Assembly (NCBI RefSeq): GCF_005491205.1
Contig: NZ_CP028035.1
Coordinates: forward strand, 620,001 to 684,000
Source of the DNA: Nissabacter sp. SGAir0207
GTDB taxonomy: Bacteria > Pseudomonadota > Gammaproteobacteria > Enterobacterales > Enterobacteriaceae
Reading direction: 5' to 3'
DNA length: 64,000 nucleotides
Shown: positions 54,900-64,000 of the stretch, piece after piece
Layout: every line of letters starts with the position of its first letter
Position numbering within the stretch: position 1 is the stretch's first letter
Translations under genes and position numbers: made by a program
The notes under the pieces: model-generated
Database searches by the model: none
Seen by the model: the letters and a program-made list of their open reading frames with translations, nothing else
What the model was told of the DNA's origin: nothing

Positions 54900-54910
54900 T
54901 TGCCTCTTCT

Positions 54911-54936
54911 GACGCCTGCCGTCCCCGGCAGGCGTC
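54911..54936 (+). terminator. Hairpin after garK
   Basis: GACGCCTGCCG-TCC-CCGGCAGGCGTC, a very stable stem but followed by ACCTTCCTG rather than a T-run. Confidence 0.55.
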
Positions 54937-55123
54937 ACCTTCCTGAAAAATTACACTCCCTTGTCCTGATTGCGGATTAACCGCGCCACGCCCGCCTGTG
55001 CCGTTTTCCCTGCTTGCTGCGCCTACAGGCCTGCCGATATGTTAAATCGCGATCTTTTTATTAACCGGTTTACCTGGCGTCGCTGCGCGATTTTTGCTCT
55101 TTTGGTAGGGGTGCCACAGACAA

Positions 55124-55189
55124 AAACGGTCATTTCCACAGAAACGGTCAGTAACGGTCAGCGGGACGGGTGAGGGAATGTGACCGTTT
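55124..55189. promoter_or_regulatory. Operator-like ACGGTCA repeat cluster
   Basis: AAACGGTCA at 55124 and 55142, TAACGGTCA at 55152 and the inverted TGACCGTTT at 55181. Repeated short direct elements are typical of DeoR-family operators; here they precede the deoR-type gene, so autoregulation is likely. Confidence 0.5.
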
Positions 55190-55285
55190 GCAAATTTGCC
55201 TCCGCTGGCGAGACGCCAAAAGGGGCGTTATCTGCACGCCATGCCTCAGATCAGTTCTTTAACATTTCATTAGCTTTCTCTTTTT

Positions 55286-55301
55286 TGTGCGAAATATCAC
55301 A
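55286..55301 (+). promoter_or_regulatory. CRP-like site upstream of the sugar locus
   Basis: TGTGCGAAATATCACA, 9 of 10 half-site bases. Fits catabolite control of a sugar operon; about 110 bp before the regulator start. Confidence 0.6.
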
Positions 55302-55402
55302 GCCGGTCGCGGACGCCCGATTCGCACCGGTGGCTTTGACCGTCGGCGCAAAACCATTCCGGTTAAGCCCGTATCTTAAAAAACATCAGGAAGGAGAAGA
55401 CC

Positions 55403-56224
55403 ATGCTGCCTGCAGAACGCCATCGCTTTATCGCCGACCTCCTCAGCCAACGGGGGCGGGTATTGGTTCATGAAGTGGCCGCGCTGTGCCAAATCTCACT
55501 GGAGACCGCACGTCGCGACCTGACGCTGCTGGAGAGAAAGGGCGTGCTGTTGCGCAGCCACGGCGGCGCAATCTACTTAGACAGTCCGGGGCCGGAGAAG
55601 CGCACCCTGCCGGCGCAGATTGAGCAGGGGGAGTCATTCCGCCAGCGCAGCAACGAGTCGCCGGAGGCCAAAACGCGCATTGCCAAGCGGGCGCTGGAGT
55701 TTATCTCGCCGGGTGACTGCCTGTTGCTGGACAGCAGCTCCACCAGCTGGTTCCTGGCCCGGCAGTTGCCGGACATCGAGCTGGTGGTGCTGACCAACTC
55801 GCTGCACATCATCCAGACGCTGGCGGTGAAGGCCAATGTGCGCACCATCGGCCTTGGCGGCGAGTACTCCGCCAAGTATGAGGATTTCATCGGCGTGCTG
55901 GCGGAGCAGATGCTCAAGGAGTTCGTCATCAACAAGATGTTCTTCTCCTGCCACGGCCTCAGTCTGGAGGGGGGGATCCGCGAGAGCAACGAGCACCACG
56001 CGCGGCTGAAACAGCAGATGCTGCTGGCCGCCGAGCGCAAGTTCCTGCTGGTGGACGCCAGCAAGATTGGCCGCCGCTCCTTTGCCCGCATCTGCCACTA
56101 CCGCGAGATCGACACGCTGATCACCGACCGGCTGGTGGACGAGGAGTTCCGGCAGGAGCTGGCCTGGAACAACGTCAATGTGGTGGAGGCCGCGCCCGCC
56201 AACCGGCGGCGCGGCGAGCCGTAG
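55403..56224 (+). CDS. DeoR/GlpR-family transcriptional regulator
   Basis: 273 residues from ATG 55403 with Shine-Dalgarno AAGGAG. N-terminal winged helix with the DeoR signature (about 6-58: VHEVAALCQISLETARRDL, LLERKGVLLRSHGGA); C-terminal sugar-phosphate-sensing domain (from about 85: DSSSTSWFLARQL, VVLTNSLHI, VDASKIGRRSF). Likely repressor of the downstream transport and catabolic genes, relieved by a phosphorylated sugar. Target sugar unknown. Confidence 0.85.
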   Translation: MLPAERHRFIADLLSQRGRVLVHEVAALCQISLETARRDLTLLERKGVLLRSHGGAIYLDSPGPEKRTLPAQIEQGESFRQRSNESPEAKTRIAKRALEFISPGDCLLLDSSSTSWFLARQLPDIELVVLTNSLHIIQTLAVKANVRTIGLGGEYSAKYEDFIGVLAEQMLKEFVINKMFFSCHGLSLEGGIRESNEHHARLKQQMLLAAERKFLLVDASKIGRRSFARICHYREIDTLITDRLVDEEFRQELAWNNVNVVEAAPANRRRGEP

Positions 56225-56246
56225 GGGTGTGCGCCAAACACCTGAC

Positions 56247-56307
56247 CGTCTGTCCCAATAACCATCTGTCCAATAACTGTCTGTCCAATAACTGTCTGTC
56301 CAATAAC
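56247..56307 (+). repeat. 15-bp tandem repeat, four copies
   Basis: Unit TGTCTGTCCAATAAC: two exact copies (56278-56307), one with a two-base change (CATCTGTCCAATAAC), and one 16-bp variant with an extra C. It lies between the regulator stop and the binding-protein Shine-Dalgarno. It could change copy number by slippage and alter leader length or regulator spacing. Confidence 0.85.
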
Positions 56308-56345
56308 AACAAGTGGCGTGGAGCCACCCTGAAGGAGAGAACACC

Positions 56346-57329
56346 ATGAAGAGATCTGTACTGGCCTGCCTGTTTGCCACGGCGCTGCTCTCTGTGTCAG
56401 CGCATGGCGCGGAGAAGCTCCGCATGGGCGTGGTGGTCAAGATTGGCGGCATCCCGTGGTTCAACGCGATGGAGGCCGGCATCAAGAGCGAGGCCGCCAA
56501 GCGTGGCATCGACGCCTGGCAGGTTGGCCCGACCGCCGCCGACCCGGCGTTGCAGGTGCGGGCGATTGAAGATCTGATCGCGCAGAAGGTGGATGTGATC
56601 GGCGTGGTGCCGAACGACGCCAAGGTGCTGGAGCCGGTGCTGAAGCGCGCGCAGGCGGCGGGCATCAAGGTGATTGTGCATGAGTCGCCGGGGCAGCAGT
56701 ACGCCGACTGGGACTTTGAGCTGGTGGACGCCAAGGTGCACGGTATCAACCACATGAAAGCGCTGGCCGCCTGCATGAAAGAGCAGGGCAAGTACGCGGT
56801 CTACGTCGGCAGCCTGACGGTGCCGCTGCACAATTTGTGGGCCGACTCGGCCATCAACTACCAGAAAGAGCACTACCCGAACATGCAGATGGTGGCCGAC
56901 AAGTTCGGGGTGGCGGAGTCGCTGGATGAGACGCTGCGCACCACCAACGACCTGATGGCCAAGTACCCCGACCTGAAGGGCATCGTCGCCTTCGGCTCGC
57001 AGGGGCCAATCGGTGCCGGTCGCGCGGTGATGAACCGTGGCAAGACCAATGATATCTGCGTCATCGGCCCGTTCAGCCCCGGTCAGGGCGCGTCGCTGGT
57101 CAACCGCGGTGCCATCAAGGGCGGCTACATCTGGAACCCGATGGTGGCCGGTGAGGTATTTGTCCGGCTGGCGGACATGATGCAGAAGGGCGAGAAGATC
57201 ACCGACGGCATGACCATTGAGGGCATGGGTCAGGTGAAGGTCGATGAGGCCACCCACACCATTCTGGGCAACGAAACCGAAAGCCTGGATAAGACCAACC
57301 TGCCGAAACTGGTGAAAATGGGGCTGTAA
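56346..57329 (+). CDS. Sugar ABC transporter periplasmic binding protein
   Basis: 327 residues from MKRSVLACL with Shine-Dalgarno AAGGAGAG; signal peptide about 1-22 (SVSAHG-AEKL). Type I periplasmic binding fold of the ribose/LsrB/RhaS class (Peripla_BP_4): GVVVKIGGIPWFNAMEAGI at the start, IGVVPNDAKVLEPVLKRA, and an LsrB-like C-lobe (AFGSQGPIGAGRAV). No lipobox. Two bp before the ATPase gene. Substrate not assignable; an LsrB-like AI-2 role is unlikely because lsrF, lsrG and lsrK are missing. Confidence 0.85.
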   Translation: MKRSVLACLFATALLSVSAHGAEKLRMGVVVKIGGIPWFNAMEAGIKSEAAKRGIDAWQVGPTAADPALQVRAIEDLIAQKVDVIGVVPNDAKVLEPVLKRAQAAGIKVIVHESPGQQYADWDFELVDAKVHGINHMKALAACMKEQGKYAVYVGSLTVPLHNLWADSAINYQKEHYPNMQMVADKFGVAESLDETLRTTNDLMAKYPDLKGIVAFGSQGPIGAGRAVMNRGKTNDICVIGPFSPGQGASLVNRGAIKGGYIWNPMVAGEVFVRLADMMQKGEKITDGMTIEGMGQVKVDEATHTILGNETESLDKTNLPKLVKMGL

Positions 57330-57331
57330 CC

Positions 57332-58870
57332 ATGGCGATCTCCGAGACACTCCCAACCGCAACGCCCGCCGCGCCCACCGTCGGCCAGCCGCTGATCGAC
57401 GTGCAGCACCTGTCGATGACCTTCGGCGGCCACCGGGCGCTGGATGAGATCTCCCTGACCCTGATGCAGGGCGAGGTGCACTGTCTGGCCGGCACCAACG
57501 GCTGCGGCAAAAGCACGCTGATCAAGGTGATCTCGGGGGTCTACCAGCCGGATGCCGGCTGCCGCATCACCCTGAATGGCGAAACCTTCCGCCGGCTGAC
57601 GCCGGATCAGGCCCGCGCCTTCGGCATCCAGGTGATTTACCAGGATCTGTCGCTGTTCCCCAACCTGACGGTGGCGGAGAACATCGCCTTTGAGCACAAC
57701 CTGCATGGCCTGCTGGGCTGGTTCCGGCCCGGCAAGCTGCGCGCCACGGCGCAACGCATTCTTGATGAGCTGAACTTTACCCTCGATCTCGACAGCAAGG
57801 TGTCGGAGCTGCCGATCGCCCAGCGCCAGCAGGTGGCCATTTGCCGCGCGCTGGTGGCCGACGCCCGGCTGGTGATCATGGATGAGCCGACCGCCTCGCT
57901 GACCCGCACCGAGGTCAACCAACTGCTGCGCACCGTGCACTACCTGAAGGGGCGCGGCATCAGCGTGGTGTTCGTCAGCCACCGGCTGGATGAGGTGCTG
58001 GAGATCTCCGACCGCGTGACGGTGATCCGCGACGGCAAAAAGGTCGGCACCTTCCCGGCCAGCGAGGTGAGCAGCGCCCGCCTGACGGAGCTGATGACCG
58101 GCCTGACCCTCGACTACCGCCTGAAGGCGGCCAACCGCCACAACCCGCGCGTGATGCTGGAGGTGGACAACCTCAGCCGCCCCGGCCAGTACCATGACGT
58201 CAGCTTCAAACTCCATCAGGGCGAGGTGCTGGGGCTGTGCGGCCTGCTCGGCTCCGGCCGCACCGAGCTGGCGCTCAGCCTGTTCGGCATGACCCGGCCG
58301 GAGAGCGGCAAGATCTACCTCGACAGCAAGCCGGTGCGCTTCCGCAGCCATGAGGACGCCATCAAGGCTGGCATCGGCTACGTCTCGGAGGATCGCCTGA
58401 CGCTCGGGCTGGTGTTGCAGCAGTCGGTGGCCGACAACACGGTGCTGGCGATCCTCGACCAGCTGCGCGGCCGCTTCCACCTGATTGATGAGTACCGCAA
58501 GAACAAGCTGATCATGCAGTGGATCGAGCGGCTCGGCGTCAAGGTGAATGACCCGGAGCAGGCGATCTCGACGCTCTCCGGCGGCAACCAGCAGAAGATC
58601 GTGCTGGCGAAATGGGTGCTGACCCAACCCAAGATTTTGATCCTCGACTCGCCCACCGTCGGCGTGGATGTCGGTGCCAAGGCCAGCATCTATCAGCTGA
58701 TCCACCAGCTGGCCGACGAGGGGATCTCGGTGCTGCTGATCTCCGACGAGGTGCCGGAGGTCTACTTCAACTGCGACCGGGTGCTGCACTTCAGCGAAGG
58801 CAGCGTCATCGGCGAATACCTGCCACACGGCATCAGCCAGCAACAACTCGCGGAGGCGGTCAATGCTTGA
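57332..58870 (+). CDS. Sugar ABC transporter ATPase (two nucleotide-binding domains)
   Basis: 512 residues of the RbsA/LsrA type. NBD1: Walker A GTNGCGKST at 54-62, signature-like PIAQRQQ at 161-167, Walker B VIMDEP with Glu185. NBD2: Walker A-like GLLGSGR at 304-310 without lysine, as usual in this family, signature LSGGNQ at 415-420, Walker B LILDSP in which the catalytic Glu is replaced by Ser440. It overlaps the next gene by 8 bp. Confidence 0.92.
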   Translation: MAISETLPTATPAAPTVGQPLIDVQHLSMTFGGHRALDEISLTLMQGEVHCLAGTNGCGKSTLIKVISGVYQPDAGCRITLNGETFRRLTPDQARAFGIQVIYQDLSLFPNLTVAENIAFEHNLHGLLGWFRPGKLRATAQRILDELNFTLDLDSKVSELPIAQRQQVAICRALVADARLVIMDEPTASLTRTEVNQLLRTVHYLKGRGISVVFVSHRLDEVLEISDRVTVIRDGKKVGTFPASEVSSARLTELMTGLTLDYRLKAANRHNPRVMLEVDNLSRPGQYHDVSFKLHQGEVLGLCGLLGSGRTELALSLFGMTRPESGKIYLDSKPVRFRSHEDAIKAGIGYVSEDRLTLGLVLQQSVADNTVLAILDQLRGRFHLIDEYRKNKLIMQWIERLGVKVNDPEQAISTLSGGNQQKIVLAKWVLTQPKILILDSPTVGVDVGAKASIYQLIHQLADEGISVLLISDEVPEVYFNCDRVLHFSEGSVIGEYLPHGISQQQLAEAVNA

Positions 58871-59906
58871 CATCAACTCACACCTGCCGAAGAGCGTCCC
58901 GGCCCGCCGCGTCGGGCCACACGGCCTGCGCCGCCTGCTGCCGCGCCACAACGAGGGCTACCTCGCGTGGGTGGTGCTGGTGGTGATGGTCACCTTCTCG
59001 CTGCTCAGTGACCAGTTCCTCACCGTGCAGAACCTGCTCGACCTGACCGAGAGCTATGCGGTCAGCGGCATCTTTGCCCTCGGGCTGTTCGTGGTGCTGG
59101 TGACCGGCGGCATCGACATCTCCTTCGCCGCCGTCGCCTCGGTGGTGCAGTACCTGATCGCCTCGCTGTTCCTGCATCTGGGGCTGACCAGCCCGGTGCT
59201 TAGCATCGCGCTCGGCATCGGCGCGGGGATGCTGCTCGGCATGTTCAACGCCCTGCTGATCTACGGCCTGCGCATCGTCTCGATCATCGTCACCATCAGT
59301 ATGCAGGCGCTGCTGTTCGGCATGCTGATGTGGCTGACCAACGGCCGCAGCCTGTATGACCTGCCGGAGTGGTGGACGCTGCCGCGCAGCGTGCTGCCGT
59401 TCAGCCTCGGCGACCAAAGCTACCAGATCGGCCTGCCGCTGGTGGTGATGCTGGCGGTGGCGCTGCTCACCTGGCTGCTGCTCAACCGCACCCACCTGGG
59501 CCGCCAGCTATTCGCGATGGGCGGCGATCAGGAGTCAGCGCGCCGCATCGGCATCCGCGTCGGGCTGCTGCACCTGTTCGCCTATGGCTACCTCGGCGCG
59601 ATGGCGGCGGTCGGCGGGCTGGTGCAGGTCTACCGCGTCGGCGAGGTGGTGCCTAACGCACTGGTCGGCGGCGAGCTGGACGTGCTGGCGGCGGCGGTGC
59701 TGGGCGGGGCCAGCCTCAACGGCGGCAAGGGGAGCGTGGTGGGCACCCTGATGGGGGTGTTCCTGATCGGCATGTTGAAGAACGGCCTGAACCTGATCGG
59801 CGTCTCCAACTACTTCATGAATGTGGTGATTGGCGTGGTGATTGTCGCCGCCATCACCGTCACCCACTACAAAAAACGCAAAGAGACGGACGTCGGCTTC
59901 GTCTGA
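58863..59906 (+). CDS. Sugar ABC transporter permease 1
   Basis: 347 residues, about nine hydrophobic segments, BPD_transp_2 family (RbsC/LsrC-like). Recognisable VTGGIDISFAAVASV near the middle of the first half and the cytoplasmic coupling end GGASLNGGKGSVVGTLMG. Overlaps both neighbours (8 bp with the ATPase gene; TGATG with the next frame). Confidence 0.92.
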   Translation: MLDINSHLPKSVPARRVGPHGLRRLLPRHNEGYLAWVVLVVMVTFSLLSDQFLTVQNLLDLTESYAVSGIFALGLFVVLVTGGIDISFAAVASVVQYLIASLFLHLGLTSPVLSIALGIGAGMLLGMFNALLIYGLRIVSIIVTISMQALLFGMLMWLTNGRSLYDLPEWWTLPRSVLPFSLGDQSYQIGLPLVVMLAVALLTWLLLNRTHLGRQLFAMGGDQESARRIGIRVGLLHLFAYGYLGAMAAVGGLVQVYRVGEVVPNALVGGELDVLAAAVLGGASLNGGKGSVVGTLMGVFLIGMLKNGLNLIGVSNYFMNVVIGVVIVAAITVTHYKKRKETDVGFV

Positions 59907-59926
59907 TGGCCAGCGCGGGAGAGCTT

Positions 59927-60955
59927 ATGTTTACGCGGATCAAAAAAGTGGATAGCACCACCCAGGGGCTGCTGCTGTTGCTGGTACTGGTGGTGGTGGG
60001 CTTCAGCGTGGCGCTGCCGGGGCGCTTCTTCAACGGCGGCACCTTTATGAGCATCGCCTTCCAGCTGCCGGAGCTGGGGCTGCTGACGCTGGCAATGTTT
60101 ATCCCGATCCTTAGCGGCGGCCTGAACCTGGCGATCATCGCCACCGCCAACCTCACCAGCCTGCTGATGGCCTGGGTGTTCCTCACCTGGATGCCACCGG
60201 AGGCCGCGCTGGCGCTGCAGGCGCTGTGGCTGGCGGTGGCTCTGGTGGGCGCGATGCTGCTGGCGATGGTGATTGGCCTGTTCACCGGCGCGCTGGTGGC
60301 CTACGTCGGCGCGCACCCGATTCTGGTGACGCTGGCGACCATGACCATCGTCAACGGCCTCGGCATCTACCTGACGCGCGGTGCGGCCCTGAGCGGGATG
60401 CCGGAGATTGTGCGCTACATCGGCGCGGAGACGCTGCTCGGCGTGCCGGTGCCGCTGATCCTGTTTCTGGTGACGGCGCTGCTGCTGGCGCTGTTTTTGG
60501 AGAAGACCCGCCTCGGCAAGACCATCTACATGAGCGGCAGCAACATCAACGCCACCCACTTCAGCGGCGTGAACACCCACCGCGTGCTGATGGCGATCTA
60601 CATGATCTCCAGCCTGCTGTGCGTGATCGCCGGGCTGGTGATGATGGCGCGCTTCAACTCGGCGCGCATGGGCTACGGCGACTCCTATCTGTTGCTGACC
60701 GTGCTGGCGATCATCCTCGGCGGCACCGACCCGTTCGGCGGCTTTGGCCGCGTCAGCGGCGTGGTGCTGGCGCTGGTGGTGCTCCAGGTGATTGCCACCG
60801 GCCTCAATTTGCTCAACGTCAGCCCGCACTTCAGCCTGGCGATGTGGGGCGCGGTACTGATTCTGGTGCTGGCTGGCAAGTTCTTCCGCCAGCGTTACCA
60901 GCAGCGGCGTGCGGCGCGGCTCAGCGCCCTGCGCGCCCGGCAGGCACGCCCCTGA
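59927..60955 (+). CDS. Sugar ABC transporter permease 2
   Basis: 342 residues from MFTRIKKV (ATG 59927, preceded by GGGAG); an ATG at 59906 overlapping the previous stop would add seven residues. BPD_transp_2 family with SGGLNLAIIATANLTSLL and GGTDPFGGFGRVSGVVLA. Diverged from permease 1, so the channel is probably a heterodimer as in Lsr, YtfT-YjfF or rhizobial RhaPQ systems. Confidence 0.9.
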   Translation: MFTRIKKVDSTTQGLLLLLVLVVVGFSVALPGRFFNGGTFMSIAFQLPELGLLTLAMFIPILSGGLNLAIIATANLTSLLMAWVFLTWMPPEAALALQALWLAVALVGAMLLAMVIGLFTGALVAYVGAHPILVTLATMTIVNGLGIYLTRGAALSGMPEIVRYIGAETLLGVPVPLILFLVTALLLALFLEKTRLGKTIYMSGSNINATHFSGVNTHRVLMAIYMISSLLCVIAGLVMMARFNSARMGYGDSYLLLTVLAIILGGTDPFGGFGRVSGVVLALVVLQVIATGLNLLNVSPHFSLAMWGAVLILVLAGKFFRQRYQQRRAARLSALRARQARP

Positions 60956-60988
60956 TTCTTTTTTCCCCTTAACCTCAGGATACGGACC

Positions 60989-61660
60989 ATGGACTACAAA
61001 ATTTCGCCCTCGCTGATGTGCATGAACCTGATGGAGATCCGCCAGCAGCTGGCGGTGCTCAATCGCCGCGCCGACATGCTGCACATCGACATCATGGATG
61101 GGCACTTTGTGAAAAACATCACCCTGTCGCCCTTCTTTATTGAGCAGATCCGCCCGCACACGCCGCTGGTGCTGGACGTGCACCTGATGGTGGAGCACCC
61201 GACCGACTTTATCGTGCCGATTGCCGAGGCCGGGGCGGACTTCATCTGCCCGCACGCCGAAACCATCAACCGCGACGCCTTCCGCGTGATCAACCAGATC
61301 CGCTCGCTTGGCAAAAAGGTGGGCGTGGTGCTCAACCCGGCGACGCCGGTGGAGTACATCCGCCACTACATCCACCTGCTGGACAAGATCACCGTGATGA
61401 CGGTCGATCCCGGCTACGCTGGCCAGCCCTTCATCCCAGAGATGCTCGGCAAGATCCGCCAGTTGCGCGACCTGAAGCGCGAGCAGGGCCACCGCTACCT
61501 GATAGAGATTGATGGCTCCTGCAACAGCCGTACCTACCACGACCTGATGGGCGCGGGCGCGGAAGTGCTGATTGTCGGCACCTCCGGGCTGTTCAATCTG
61601 GACAGTGATTTGGATGCGGCGTGGGAAAAGATGCTCGATCAGATGCGCCAGGCGGCGTAA
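60989..61660 (+). CDS. alsE: Allulose-6-phosphate 3-epimerase-like protein
   Basis: 223 residues, ribulose-phosphate 3-epimerase fold. Metal and substrate residues: SPSLMCMNL, LHIDIMDGHFV (His32, Asp34), DVHLMVEHP, VDPGYAGQPFIP, and IDGSCN with the catalytic Asp. The MCM start and GSCN end resemble E. coli AlsE rather than Rpe, suggesting D-allulose-6-phosphate to fructose-6-phosphate. Other 3-epimerisations are possible. Confidence 0.75.
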   Translation: MDYKISPSLMCMNLMEIRQQLAVLNRRADMLHIDIMDGHFVKNITLSPFFIEQIRPHTPLVLDVHLMVEHPTDFIVPIAEAGADFICPHAETINRDAFRVINQIRSLGKKVGVVLNPATPVEYIRHYIHLLDKITVMTVDPGYAGQPFIPEMLGKIRQLRDLKREQGHRYLIEIDGSCNSRTYHDLMGAGAEVLIVGTSGLFNLDSDLDAAWEKMLDQMRQAA

Positions 61661-61674
61661 ACGCGGAGAGGCGT

Positions 61675-62583
61675 ATGCAGCAATTTCTTGGGGTCGATAT
61701 CGGCGGCACACACACCCGCCTGATGGTAATGGATGAGCAGCAACGCTTTAGCGGCTACCGCAAAGTGCCGACCGCCAGCTGGGCGCGGCAGGCCGATCCA
61801 TTGCAGGGGCTGACAGAGCTGATCGCCGCCGCGCGGCCAGACGGGCCGCTGGCGCGGGTGATGCTCGGGCTGCCCGGCATTCTGTCACGCGACCGGCGGC
61901 AGGTGCTCTCGCTGCCCTTCATCCCGGCGCTGGACAACCAGCCGGTGGCGGCGCGCCTCAGCCAGGCGCTGGGGGTGGAGGTGGCGATGGACAAGGACGT
62001 CAACCACCTGATGTGGTGGGACTTAACCCGCCTGCCGCAGCTGCCGCGCGTGGCGGTCGGGGTCTACCTCGGCACCGGCATGGGCAACAGCCTGTGGCTG
62101 GAGGGGGCGTTCTACCACGGCGCGCACGGGGCCGCTGGCGAACTGGGCCACATGCCGTGGCCGGGCGAGACCACCGCCTGCCGCTGCGGCAACATTGGCT
62201 GCGTGGAGAGCGTCACCGCTGGCCACTGGCTGGCGGACTGGGCCACCGCCCACGCCGCGCAGACGCCGATTGGCGAGCTGTTTCTGCACCACGCGGCGCA
62301 CCCGGATTTGCAGGCGTTCATCACCCGGCTGGCGCAGGCGATTGCCGCCGAGATGAACATCCTCGACCCGGAGCATCTGGTGCTGGGCGGCGGGGTGCTG
62401 GCGATGCCCGGCTTCCCGCAGGCGGCGCTGATTGCGCAGATCCGTCGCCATCTGCGCGCGCCACAGCCGGCCGGCGGGCTGGCGATCACCCTGAGCGACG
62501 TCACTGACGAGACCGGCTGCCGTGGTGCCTGTCTGGCCGCCGCGCGTGACCTTTCCTTTGCCGGCAGCAGGAGGCAGGCATGA
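61675..62583 (+). CDS. ROK-family sugar kinase (AlsK-like)
   Basis: 302 residues from MQQFLGVDIGGTHTR; an in-frame codon at 61621 inside the previous gene was rejected. ATP motif DIGGTHTR at 8-15; catalytic Asp near 108 (MDKDVN); AGELGHMP with His159 and zinc ligands Cys169, Cys171, Cys176. Resembles D-allose kinase AlsK in YLGTGMG and the zinc block. Its stop overlaps the next start (ATGA). Confidence 0.82.
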   Translation: MQQFLGVDIGGTHTRLMVMDEQQRFSGYRKVPTASWARQADPLQGLTELIAAARPDGPLARVMLGLPGILSRDRRQVLSLPFIPALDNQPVAARLSQALGVEVAMDKDVNHLMWWDLTRLPQLPRVAVGVYLGTGMGNSLWLEGAFYHGAHGAAGELGHMPWPGETTACRCGNIGCVESVTAGHWLADWATAHAAQTPIGELFLHHAAHPDLQAFITRLAQAIAAEMNILDPEHLVLGGGVLAMPGFPQAALIAQIRRHLRAPQPAGGLAITLSDVTDETGCRGACLAAARDLSFAGSRRQA

Positions 62584-63503
62584 GCAATAAAGTGTGTGTG
62601 TTTGGATCGTTCAACCTGGACATCGTCGCGGGCATGGCGCGCTTCCCCCAGCCGGGCGAGTCGCTGATTGCGCGCAACAGCATGATGGGCGCGGGCGGCA
62701 AGGGGGCCAACCAAGCGATTGCCGCGCTGCGCGCCGGTGCGCGCGTCCACTACATCGGCAAGGTGGGGCGGGATGATTTCGGCCAGTTCGCCCGCCGCCA
62801 CCTCGACAGCGCCGGTTTTGATGCCGTGACGCTGTTCACCACCGGCGAGCGGCCGACCGGCAACGCGCTGATCTACGTGGCGGGGGAGGATGCGGAGAAC
62901 ATGATCGCAGTAGACCCCGGCGCGAACCTGACGGTCAGCGAGCAGGAGATTGATCAGTGCCGCCCGGCGATTGCCGCGGCCGACATCCTGCTGACCCAAT
63001 TGGAGAACAACTTGCCAGCGGTGGAGCGCGCCATCGCGCTGGCGCGTGAGGCGGGCACCTCGGTGATCCTCAACCCGGCGCCGTTCCAGCCGGTGCCGGA
63101 CGCGCTGCTGCAACAGGTTGACCTACTGACGCCCAACGCCACCGAGTGCTCGCTGCTCAGCGGCGTGACGGTGACGGACGTGGCCTCGGCGCGTGAGGCG
63201 GCGGCGGTGCTGCACCGCAAGGGGATTGCGCGGCTGATCGTCACCCTCGGCACCCAGGGGGCGCTGCTGTCGCTGGAGGGGGAGACCACGCTGGTGCCAG
63301 CCTGCCGCGCCACGCCGGTCGATACCACCGGCGCGGGCGATGCCTTCAACGGCGCGCTGGCGGCGCAACTGGCGGCCGGCAGTGGGCTGGCGCAGGCGGT
63401 GCGGTTTGCCACCGCCTATGCGGCGGTGTGCGTCGAGCGGCCGGGGGCGGCGGCCTCCATGCCGAGCCACGCAGAGGCGCTGGCGCGACTGCAGGCGGGG
63501 TAG
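62580..63503 (+). CDS. Ribokinase-family (PfkB) carbohydrate kinase
   Basis: 307 residues. GAGGKGANQA at 37-46 (first PfkB signature) and DTTGAGDAFNGAL with catalytic Asp254. Overall closest to ribokinase RbsK. Translationally coupled to the ROK kinase, so it belongs to the same pathway. Substrate may be ribose or another ketose/pentose; not decided. Confidence 0.82.
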   Translation: MSNKVCVFGSFNLDIVAGMARFPQPGESLIARNSMMGAGGKGANQAIAALRAGARVHYIGKVGRDDFGQFARRHLDSAGFDAVTLFTTGERPTGNALIYVAGEDAENMIAVDPGANLTVSEQEIDQCRPAIAAADILLTQLENNLPAVERAIALAREAGTSVILNPAPFQPVPDALLQQVDLLTPNATECSLLSGVTVTDVASAREAAAVLHRKGIARLIVTLGTQGALLSLEGETTLVPACRATPVDTTGAGDAFNGALAAQLAAGSGLAQAVRFATAYAAVCVERPGAAASMPSHAEALARLQAG

Positions 63504-63507
63504 GGGG

Positions 63508-64000
63508 TTACTTCAGCCAGCCCTGACGCTGGGCGTCTTGCAGGTGGCCTTCCAAATGCCGCCACAGCTCCGGGTGGATCTCGCCGATGAAGGCGTTGCG
63601 GCTCAGCACCTGCTCCAGCCGGATGCCATTCTCCACCCAGCTCTGCCCTTGGTTATTGAGGTTCATCAGCACCGGCAGGACGCGGTCGATTACTAGCGCG
63701 AAGCGCGCCTCCGGCGTTTCGCCCGCCTCATACTCCTGCCACAGGCCGAGGAAGCGCTCGCGCTGCGGCGACGGCAGCAGGCCAAACAGCCGCTGTGCGG
63801 CAGCCTGCTCCTGTTCCTGTACCGCGGCGCGGCCCGCCAGGTCATACACCAGCACGTCGCCCGCGTCGATCTCCACGATGTCATGCAGCAGCGCCATCTG
63901 GATCACCTTCTGCACGTCCAGCCCCTCGTCGGCGTAGGGAGCCAGCGTCATCGCCGCCACCGCAAAGTGCCAGCTATGTTCGGCGGAGTTCTCCTGCCGG
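63508..64000 (-). CDS. HD-domain hydrolase (5' end beyond window)
   Basis: Frame is open to the window end; the visible part begins RQENSAEHSWHFAVAAM and continues with ALLHDIVEIDAGD, the HD metal-binding pair. Resembles the YfbR/HDDC2 group of 5'-nucleotidase-like HD proteins. About 163 residues are visible; the N-terminus, probably about 30 residues, is missing. Converges with the kinase gene 4 bp away, with no terminator seen. Confidence 0.8.
   Translation of the reverse strand, partial: RQENSAEHSWHFAVAAMTLAPYADEGLDVQKVIQMALLHDIVEIDAGDVLVYDLAGRAAVQEQEQAAAQRLFGLLPSPQRERFLGLWQEYEAGETPEARFALVIDRVLPVLMNLNNQGQSWVENGIRLEQVLSRNAFIGEIHPELWRHLEGHLQDAQRQGWLK

Follow-up and report, generated by a model that had tools for sequence, protein, structure and literature searches.

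Gene content and conservation of the locus

The DNA analysed here is a window of 64,000 nt from the genome of Nissabacter sp. SGAir0207 (assembly GCF_005491205.1, contig NZ_CP028035.1, positions 620,001 to 684,000), and its subject is a sugar locus of eight co-directional genes at window positions 55403-63503 (+ strand). The genes encode a DeoR-family regulator, a sugar-binding protein, a double ATPase, two permeases, AlsE, a ROK kinase and a PfkB kinase. Comparison with related loci suggests that this operon probably imports D-allulose (D-psicose) and converts it to fructose-6-phosphate. An initial annotation of the DNA had named all of these genes within the same limits, and each was found, on one strand; its reference to a 'seven-gene order' is a miscount, as its own list has eight.

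The regulator gene, deoR, encodes a protein of 273 aa (55403-56224, +) with PF08220 and PF00455 over cut-off. After a gap of 121 nt come the genes of an ATP-binding cassette (ABC) importer, beginning with a periplasmic sugar-binding protein that resembles AauA, RhaS and LsrB (327 aa, 56346-57329, +; PF13407). The double ABC ATPase follows after 2 nt (512 aa, 57332-58870, +; PF00005 in two stretches); it is XylG/AraG/RbsA-like and scores under the cut-offs of those families. Its gene overlaps that of permease 1 (347 aa, 58863-59906, +) by 8 nt, which in turn overlaps that of permease 2 (349 aa, 59906-60955, +) by 1 nt, and both permeases match PF02653 (BPD_transp_2). A further 33 nt downstream lies alsE, for a D-allulose-6-phosphate 3-epimerase (223 aa, 60989-61660, +; 369.9 bits against NF007266, cut-off 271). 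The AlsK-related ROK sugar kinase (302 aa, 61675-62583, +) scores 347.6 bits against NF007251, for which the cut-off is 253. Its gene most likely starts at the ATG at 61675, 14 nt past alsE, because a start at the listed GTG, 61621, would fall inside alsE. The last gene overlaps the ROK gene by 4 nt and encodes a PfkB-family kinase, a predicted D-allulose 6-kinase (307 aa, 62580-63503, +), which passes the ribokinase model TIGR02152, one of two NCBIfam ribokinase cut-offs. The regulator, binding protein and permeases passed none of the NCBIfam equivalogs listed for them, and the ATPase passed none among its best 25 of 191 families.

The gap that separates deoR from the binding-protein gene contains, in the window, about four tandem copies of a 15-nt unit (56245-56307); in three Chimaeribacter relatives the same gap is 63 nt long and lacks the repeat.

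The initial annotation had proposed tracing the gene order across relatives as a check. When named genomes were scanned with the ROK kinase, 49 loci were recovered, and the complete order deoR-sbp-ATPase-perm1-perm2-alsE-ROK-PfkB was kept in 48 of them (in L040, L042, L045, L049, L050 and L060 one gene aligned in two pieces and was counted as present on alignment alone). The gene alsE adjoins the ROK gene in all 49, including the sole exception to the full order, a Spirochaetota metagenome-assembled genome (MAG) with alsE and ROK only. A second sample, chosen by AlsE at a minimum of 75% identity, comprised 36 of 392 genomes, and perm2-alsE-ROK-PfkB was kept in all 30 of the loci inspected. The cluster is a conserved unit, and the recurrence of its gene order is beyond chance.

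Carriers include Chimaeribacter, Rahnella, Rouxiella, Ewingella, Hafnia, Pantoea, Mixta, Dickeya, Tolumonas and some MAGs, with one record each from Serratia, Raoultella, Erwinia and Enterobacter. Distribution across the bacterial order is sparse: the ROK kinase was matched at E <=1e-60 in 6 of 394 genomes, and the binding protein at 77% identity or more in the same 6. Among the literature matches listed, no paper was recognisably about the eight-gene order. Two carriers, a Pantoea plasmid (L163, 10902-12860) and an Enterobacterales genome (L033, 10965-12934), have further genes immediately after PfkB, for a second related binding protein and for a nucleoside hydrolase.

Kinship to a psicose locus and the predicted pathway

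The locus has a characterised relative, the psicose locus of Klebsiella pneumoniae, in which deletion of the permease is described as impairing growth on psicose, a defect that complementation partly rescued (PMC6020474). We take a region of K. pneumoniae CP125156.1 (L162) to be this published locus on the basis of its gene set rather than of locus tags. Its incomplete gene table gives DeoR-alsE-ribokinase-VOC with a divergent deoC and DeoR, and leaves unlisted gaps where permease and FGGY genes would sit; the permease is annotated fucP in K. pneumoniae NZ_CP091979.

Other contexts of AlsE were sampled by fetching 20 of 46 matches at 53-63% identity together with their surroundings, which gave 11 als-type, seven phosphotransferase system (PTS)-type and two psicose-type loci. 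Both psicose-type loci (L142 and L143) carry DeoR-AlsE-PfkB-FucP-like permease, a divergent deoC, an FGGY kinase and a DeoR; gene families were read on L142, and the L143 alsE, whose frame was hidden by an opposite-strand ORF, is known from the AlsE search. Each als-type locus carries the regulator, AlsB, AlsA, AlsC, AlsE and AlsK groups, with the RpiR-type family of the regulator read on L144 only. The PTS-type loci (L146, 5501-9486, on which families were read, and six similar loci) place AlsE behind a PTS EIIC-GAT gene in 7/7, with EIIA- and LacI-type genes in 6/7, and are possibly a PTS route for a hexulose.

The window PfkB kinase keeps ribokinase-type motifs and is 63.5% identical to the kinase of the K. 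pneumoniae psicose locus, 63-66% to psicose-locus kinases and 42% to Escherichia coli RbsK. In a midpoint-rooted tree with just two RbsK sequences, from which three of the 49 cluster kinases (L042, L045 and L049) had been removed as shorter than 250 aa, three psicose kinases clustered with 44 of the 46 cluster kinases (support 0.997); the two outside this group are from Tolumonas. Psicose and cluster kinases together stood apart from the two RbsK proteins (support 0.933), so that the window kinase is not grouped with characterised RbsK though it passes TIGR02152. A PfkB match of 52% on a Salmonella plasmid was dropped, as its gene context differs.

AlsE of the window is 61% identical to AlsE of the K. 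pneumoniae psicose locus and 57.5% to that of E. coli, which is described as converting psicose-6-phosphate to fructose-6-phosphate (PMC10576766). It exceeds the allulose-6-phosphate model (NF007266) and lies under the rpe equivalog cut-off, and the same genome encodes another Rpe-like protein with 38% identity to it. The cluster AlsE proteins form one clade (support 0.90). Judged from these identities and trees, PfkB and AlsE appear to belong to the lineage of the K. pneumoniae psicose locus, the grouping of AlsE being the weaker of the two. When part of the psicose-type L143 was searched against E. coli genomes for near-identical sequence, no match was obtained.

The best solved relative of the window binding protein is 9i1m, AauA with D-ribulose, at 43.8% identity over 315 positions. 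AauA of enterohaemorrhagic E. coli (EHEC) is reported to bind D-ribulose at 1.98 uM through contacts with K37, W43, E118, H167, E196 and S223 (PMC12307932). All six residues are kept in the window protein (K32, W38, E113, H162, E191 and S218) and in 48/48 relatives, and one loop of the cluster proteins (AauA 249-253) has smaller residues, as seen in the alignment rather than in coordinates. D-Allulose has the D-ribo-2-ulose configuration in common with D-ribulose. The pocket as predicted from these residues fits a D-ribo ketose and cannot separate ribulose from allulose.

Twenty further stretches were sampled around other members of the binding-protein family, 18 of type C and two of type B. 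The type B loci (L096, 5788-13807; L097, 6449-14479) have the same type of regulator and importer followed by a UlaE-like 3-epimerase and an FGGY kinase. The histidine through which AauA contacts the hydroxyls at C2 and C4 is valine in type B, whereas it is histidine in all 48 cluster relatives, and by sequence the type B loci look like an L-ketopentose uptake system.

Our data are consistent with a model in which the DeoR-family regulator, sitting at repeated AAACGGTCA sites, would respond to D-allulose or its phosphate and make the operon inducible. The AauA-family importer, with its one binding protein, double ATPase and two different permeases, would take up D-allulose, as its pocket suggests. 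By kinship to the kinase of the Klebsiella psicose locus, the PfkB kinase would then phosphorylate D-allulose to D-allulose-6-phosphate, and AlsE, assigned to its family over a curated cut-off, would epimerise this at C3 to fructose-6-phosphate. The ROK kinase, which is 34-38% identical to AlsK proteins and has a D-allose kinase (3htv) as its nearest solved chain, may be a second hexose or hexulose kinase.

Ketose import, phosphorylation and 3-epimerisation had already been put forward in the initial annotation, and that part of its interpretation is backed by the kinship of PfkB and AlsE, by the D-ribulose-type pocket and by the absence of RpiB described below. Its description of the locus as uncharacterised has to be corrected in view of the K. 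pneumoniae psicose locus, as does its treatment of PfkB as the extra part: compared with that locus, what the cluster has in addition is its ABC importer and its ROK kinase.

Upstream region and choice of substrate

A predicted DeoR operator lies ahead of deoR at 55124-55189. It comprises three direct AAACGGTCA-type half-sites, at 55124, 55142 and 55152 (spacings of 18 and 10 nt), and one inverted copy at 55181. In the 450-nt regions before deoR of 48 relatives and the window, at least two copies within one mismatch are present in 49/49 and an exact copy in 48/49, while single-base shuffles of the regions gave a mean of 0.10 copies and a maximum of 2; the 49 sequences are related by descent and hence not 49 independent cases. 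The sequence AACGGTCA occurs four times in the 64-kb window, always at 55124-55189, against 1.17 expected (four or more in 3/100 shuffles), and the pair AACGGTCA-N3-30-AACGGTCA occurs once in the genome, ahead of deoR. Two psicose-type loci carry the motif too: one exact and one one-mismatch copy lie 10 nt apart before L142 (two copies were reached in 12/5000 shuffles), and three one-mismatch copies before L143, where the deoR start was placed by eye (0/5000 shuffles).

Closer to the gene, 117 nt ahead of the deoR start, lies a putative CRP-like site, TGTGCGAAATATCACA (55286-55301), with one mismatch to the CRP consensus. Of the 49 upstream regions, each of 350 nt, 32 have a best CRP-like match within one mismatch, a level reached in about 1% of shuffles; the positions vary. 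A scan of 54900-63700 for sigma-70 promoters found none, and a terminator scan of the same interval returned 5 terminator-like sites, where shuffles gave 5.1.

Several observations weigh against D-allulose as the substrate. No AAACGGTCA copy within one mismatch was found in the promoter region of the K. pneumoniae psicose locus, and one-mismatch copies also stand ahead of type B deoR (two in L096 and one in L097). The window DeoR is 48.7-50.4% identical to the type B regulators, the closest found, versus 46.6% to the alsE-adjacent DeoR of K. pneumoniae (and 31% to the second DeoR of that species). Because copies also precede type B deoR, the motif would appear to mark the DeoR lineage rather than the substrate; taken with the DeoR identities, this weakens the regulator argument for D-allulose. 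In the trees, the finer position of the psicose kinases had a support of 0.296, and the cluster AlsE grouped with psicose AlsE at 0.63, the als plus PTS side of that split having 0.966. The K. pneumoniae experiment, as described, deleted the permease and not the kinase or AlsE. AauA, the nearest relative of the binding protein with a measured ligand, shares 43.8% identity and is described as having been assayed with D-ribulose, not allulose. Lastly, the absence of a ROK kinase from the K. pneumoniae psicose locus leaves the cluster ROK unexplained.

A tentative alternative, which deserves some weight, is that both D-ribulose and D-allulose enter through one AauA-like importer, with the two kinases dividing the work by chain length or by sugar and AlsE serving the C6 substrate only. 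If so, the cluster would represent a dual ketose system driven by an ABC importer and equipped with a DeoR operator of its own, a combination absent from the literature found.

It is unlikely that the importer serves mainly D-ribulose, with PfkB or ROK making D-ribulose-5-phosphate for the pentose phosphate pathway. Such a role would suit the ligand measured for AauA and the retention of its six contacts, as well as the FGGY-type kinase gene that follows the importer in 13 of the 18 type C stretches (family read on L100, L112 and L113); after the importer of the other type C stretches, L102, L104, L108, L110 and L111, no FGGY kinase was called. However, an FGGY kinase is not among the eight genes of the cluster, AlsE passes the allulose-6-phosphate model rather than the rpe cut-off, and an AlsE would be superfluous given the separate Rpe-like gene, yet alsE adjoins the ROK gene in all 49 loci chosen by ROK.

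Improbable, too, is a D-allose operon akin to E. coli als, in which the ROK protein would be an allose kinase with AlsE acting downstream. Both proteins exceed the allose kinase and AlsE cut-offs, the ROK gene of Pantoea is publicly annotated alsK, and a full-length RpiB is encoded elsewhere in 25/48 cluster genomes. Yet allose-6-phosphate requires an isomerase. Ten of the 11 als-type stretches contain a match to E. coli RpiB, whereas no match was found in the 48 cluster loci (some of them cut by contig ends), in the three psicose-type or seven PTS-type loci, or in the window. In a genome search with E. coli as positive control and L034 left out, in which draft assemblies may miss a gene, full-length RpiB (PF02502, at least 100 bits) was lacking in 23 of 48 cluster genomes, that of Nissabacter among them. 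In 18 of the 23, again including Nissabacter, the search gave only a partial match, at about 62-72 bits and within a longer protein; the other five lack any match. A D-allose route via RpiB cannot be a general requirement of the cluster, because RpiB is missing from its loci and from 23/48 genomes, and this rules out a D-allose operon as the principal interpretation. The binding protein is AauA-like (288.9 bits) and matches the D-allose-binding chain 1gub at only 26.9 bits, and the PfkB kinase would be left without an explained role.

In the genome itself, a 236-aa frame at G000:C1:1326884-1327219 has a partial RpiB/LacAB match only; it recurs in many relatives and is not a canonical RpiB.

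Some carrier genera are plant-associated. Together with the unexplained ROK kinase, this leaves a small probability that the true substrate is another D-ribo-configured ketose or a rare plant sugar, for example a heptulose or a branched sugar, although PfkB and AlsE are kin to a psicose locus. Least probable is a second ribose or nucleoside-ribose operon, which would draw on the TIGR02152 score of the PfkB kinase and on the two relatives with a second binding protein and nucleoside hydrolase after PfkB: AlsE would have no role, such a binding protein was found in 1/48 loci (with no search for nucleoside hydrolases made in the others), and a plain second ribose operon is ruled out by the canonical rbsK elsewhere in the genome (75% identity to E. 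coli RbsK) and by the grouping of the cluster kinase with psicose kinases.

Relation to known systems

D-Allulose is described as being sold as a non-nutritive sweetener (PMC10576766), and which bacteria consume it is a practical question. If D-allulose is indeed the substrate, the cluster adds an ABC importer route beside the major facilitator superfamily (MFS) route of Klebsiella and predicts further D-allulose-using Enterobacterales; its operator motif and its binding pocket are specific features open to testing. Public names for the genes, such as allose kinase and ribokinase, may then mislead.

The cluster shares an ABC importer, AlsE and an AlsK-family ROK kinase with the D-allose (als) operon of E. 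coli K-12 with its rpiB. That operon differs in having an RpiR-type AlsR, one permease, an AlsB-type binding protein and an adjacent rpiB, and in having no PfkB kinase. The initial annotation had drawn this contrast correctly as regards the RpiR-type regulator, the single permease and AlsE/AlsK.

With the D-ribulose importers Aau of EHEC and Rbl of Citrobacter rodentium, the likeness lies in the binding-protein family and the pocket residues, but neither locus, as described, has AlsE (PMC12307932). Rbl is reported there to use an FGGY D-ribulokinase and a KpsF-like isomerase and Aau to borrow AraB; neither an FGGY D-ribulokinase nor a KpsF-like isomerase is among the eight cluster genes. The type B loci have the closest DeoR found, an importer of the same type and a binding protein with 61-65% identity, whereas their UlaE-like 3-epimerase and FGGY kinase stand in place of AlsE, ROK and PfkB, and the pocket histidine is replaced by valine.

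The K. pneumoniae psicose locus shares the order DeoR-AlsE-PfkB, at identities of 46.6, 61 and 63.5%. It has a FucP-type MFS permease (family read on the similar L142) where the cluster has an ABC importer, no ROK gene between AlsE and PfkB, and an arm of divergent deoC and DeoR. As far as sequence comparison goes, the cluster appears to work like the Klebsiella locus but to be separate from it, from als and from the Rbl operons; it is not the Klebsiella locus itself, because its transporter is of another class and it has an additional ROK kinase. Overall, the cluster seems to be a new version, with an ABC importer, of a sugar locus known from Klebsiella, and not a system of a novel kind.

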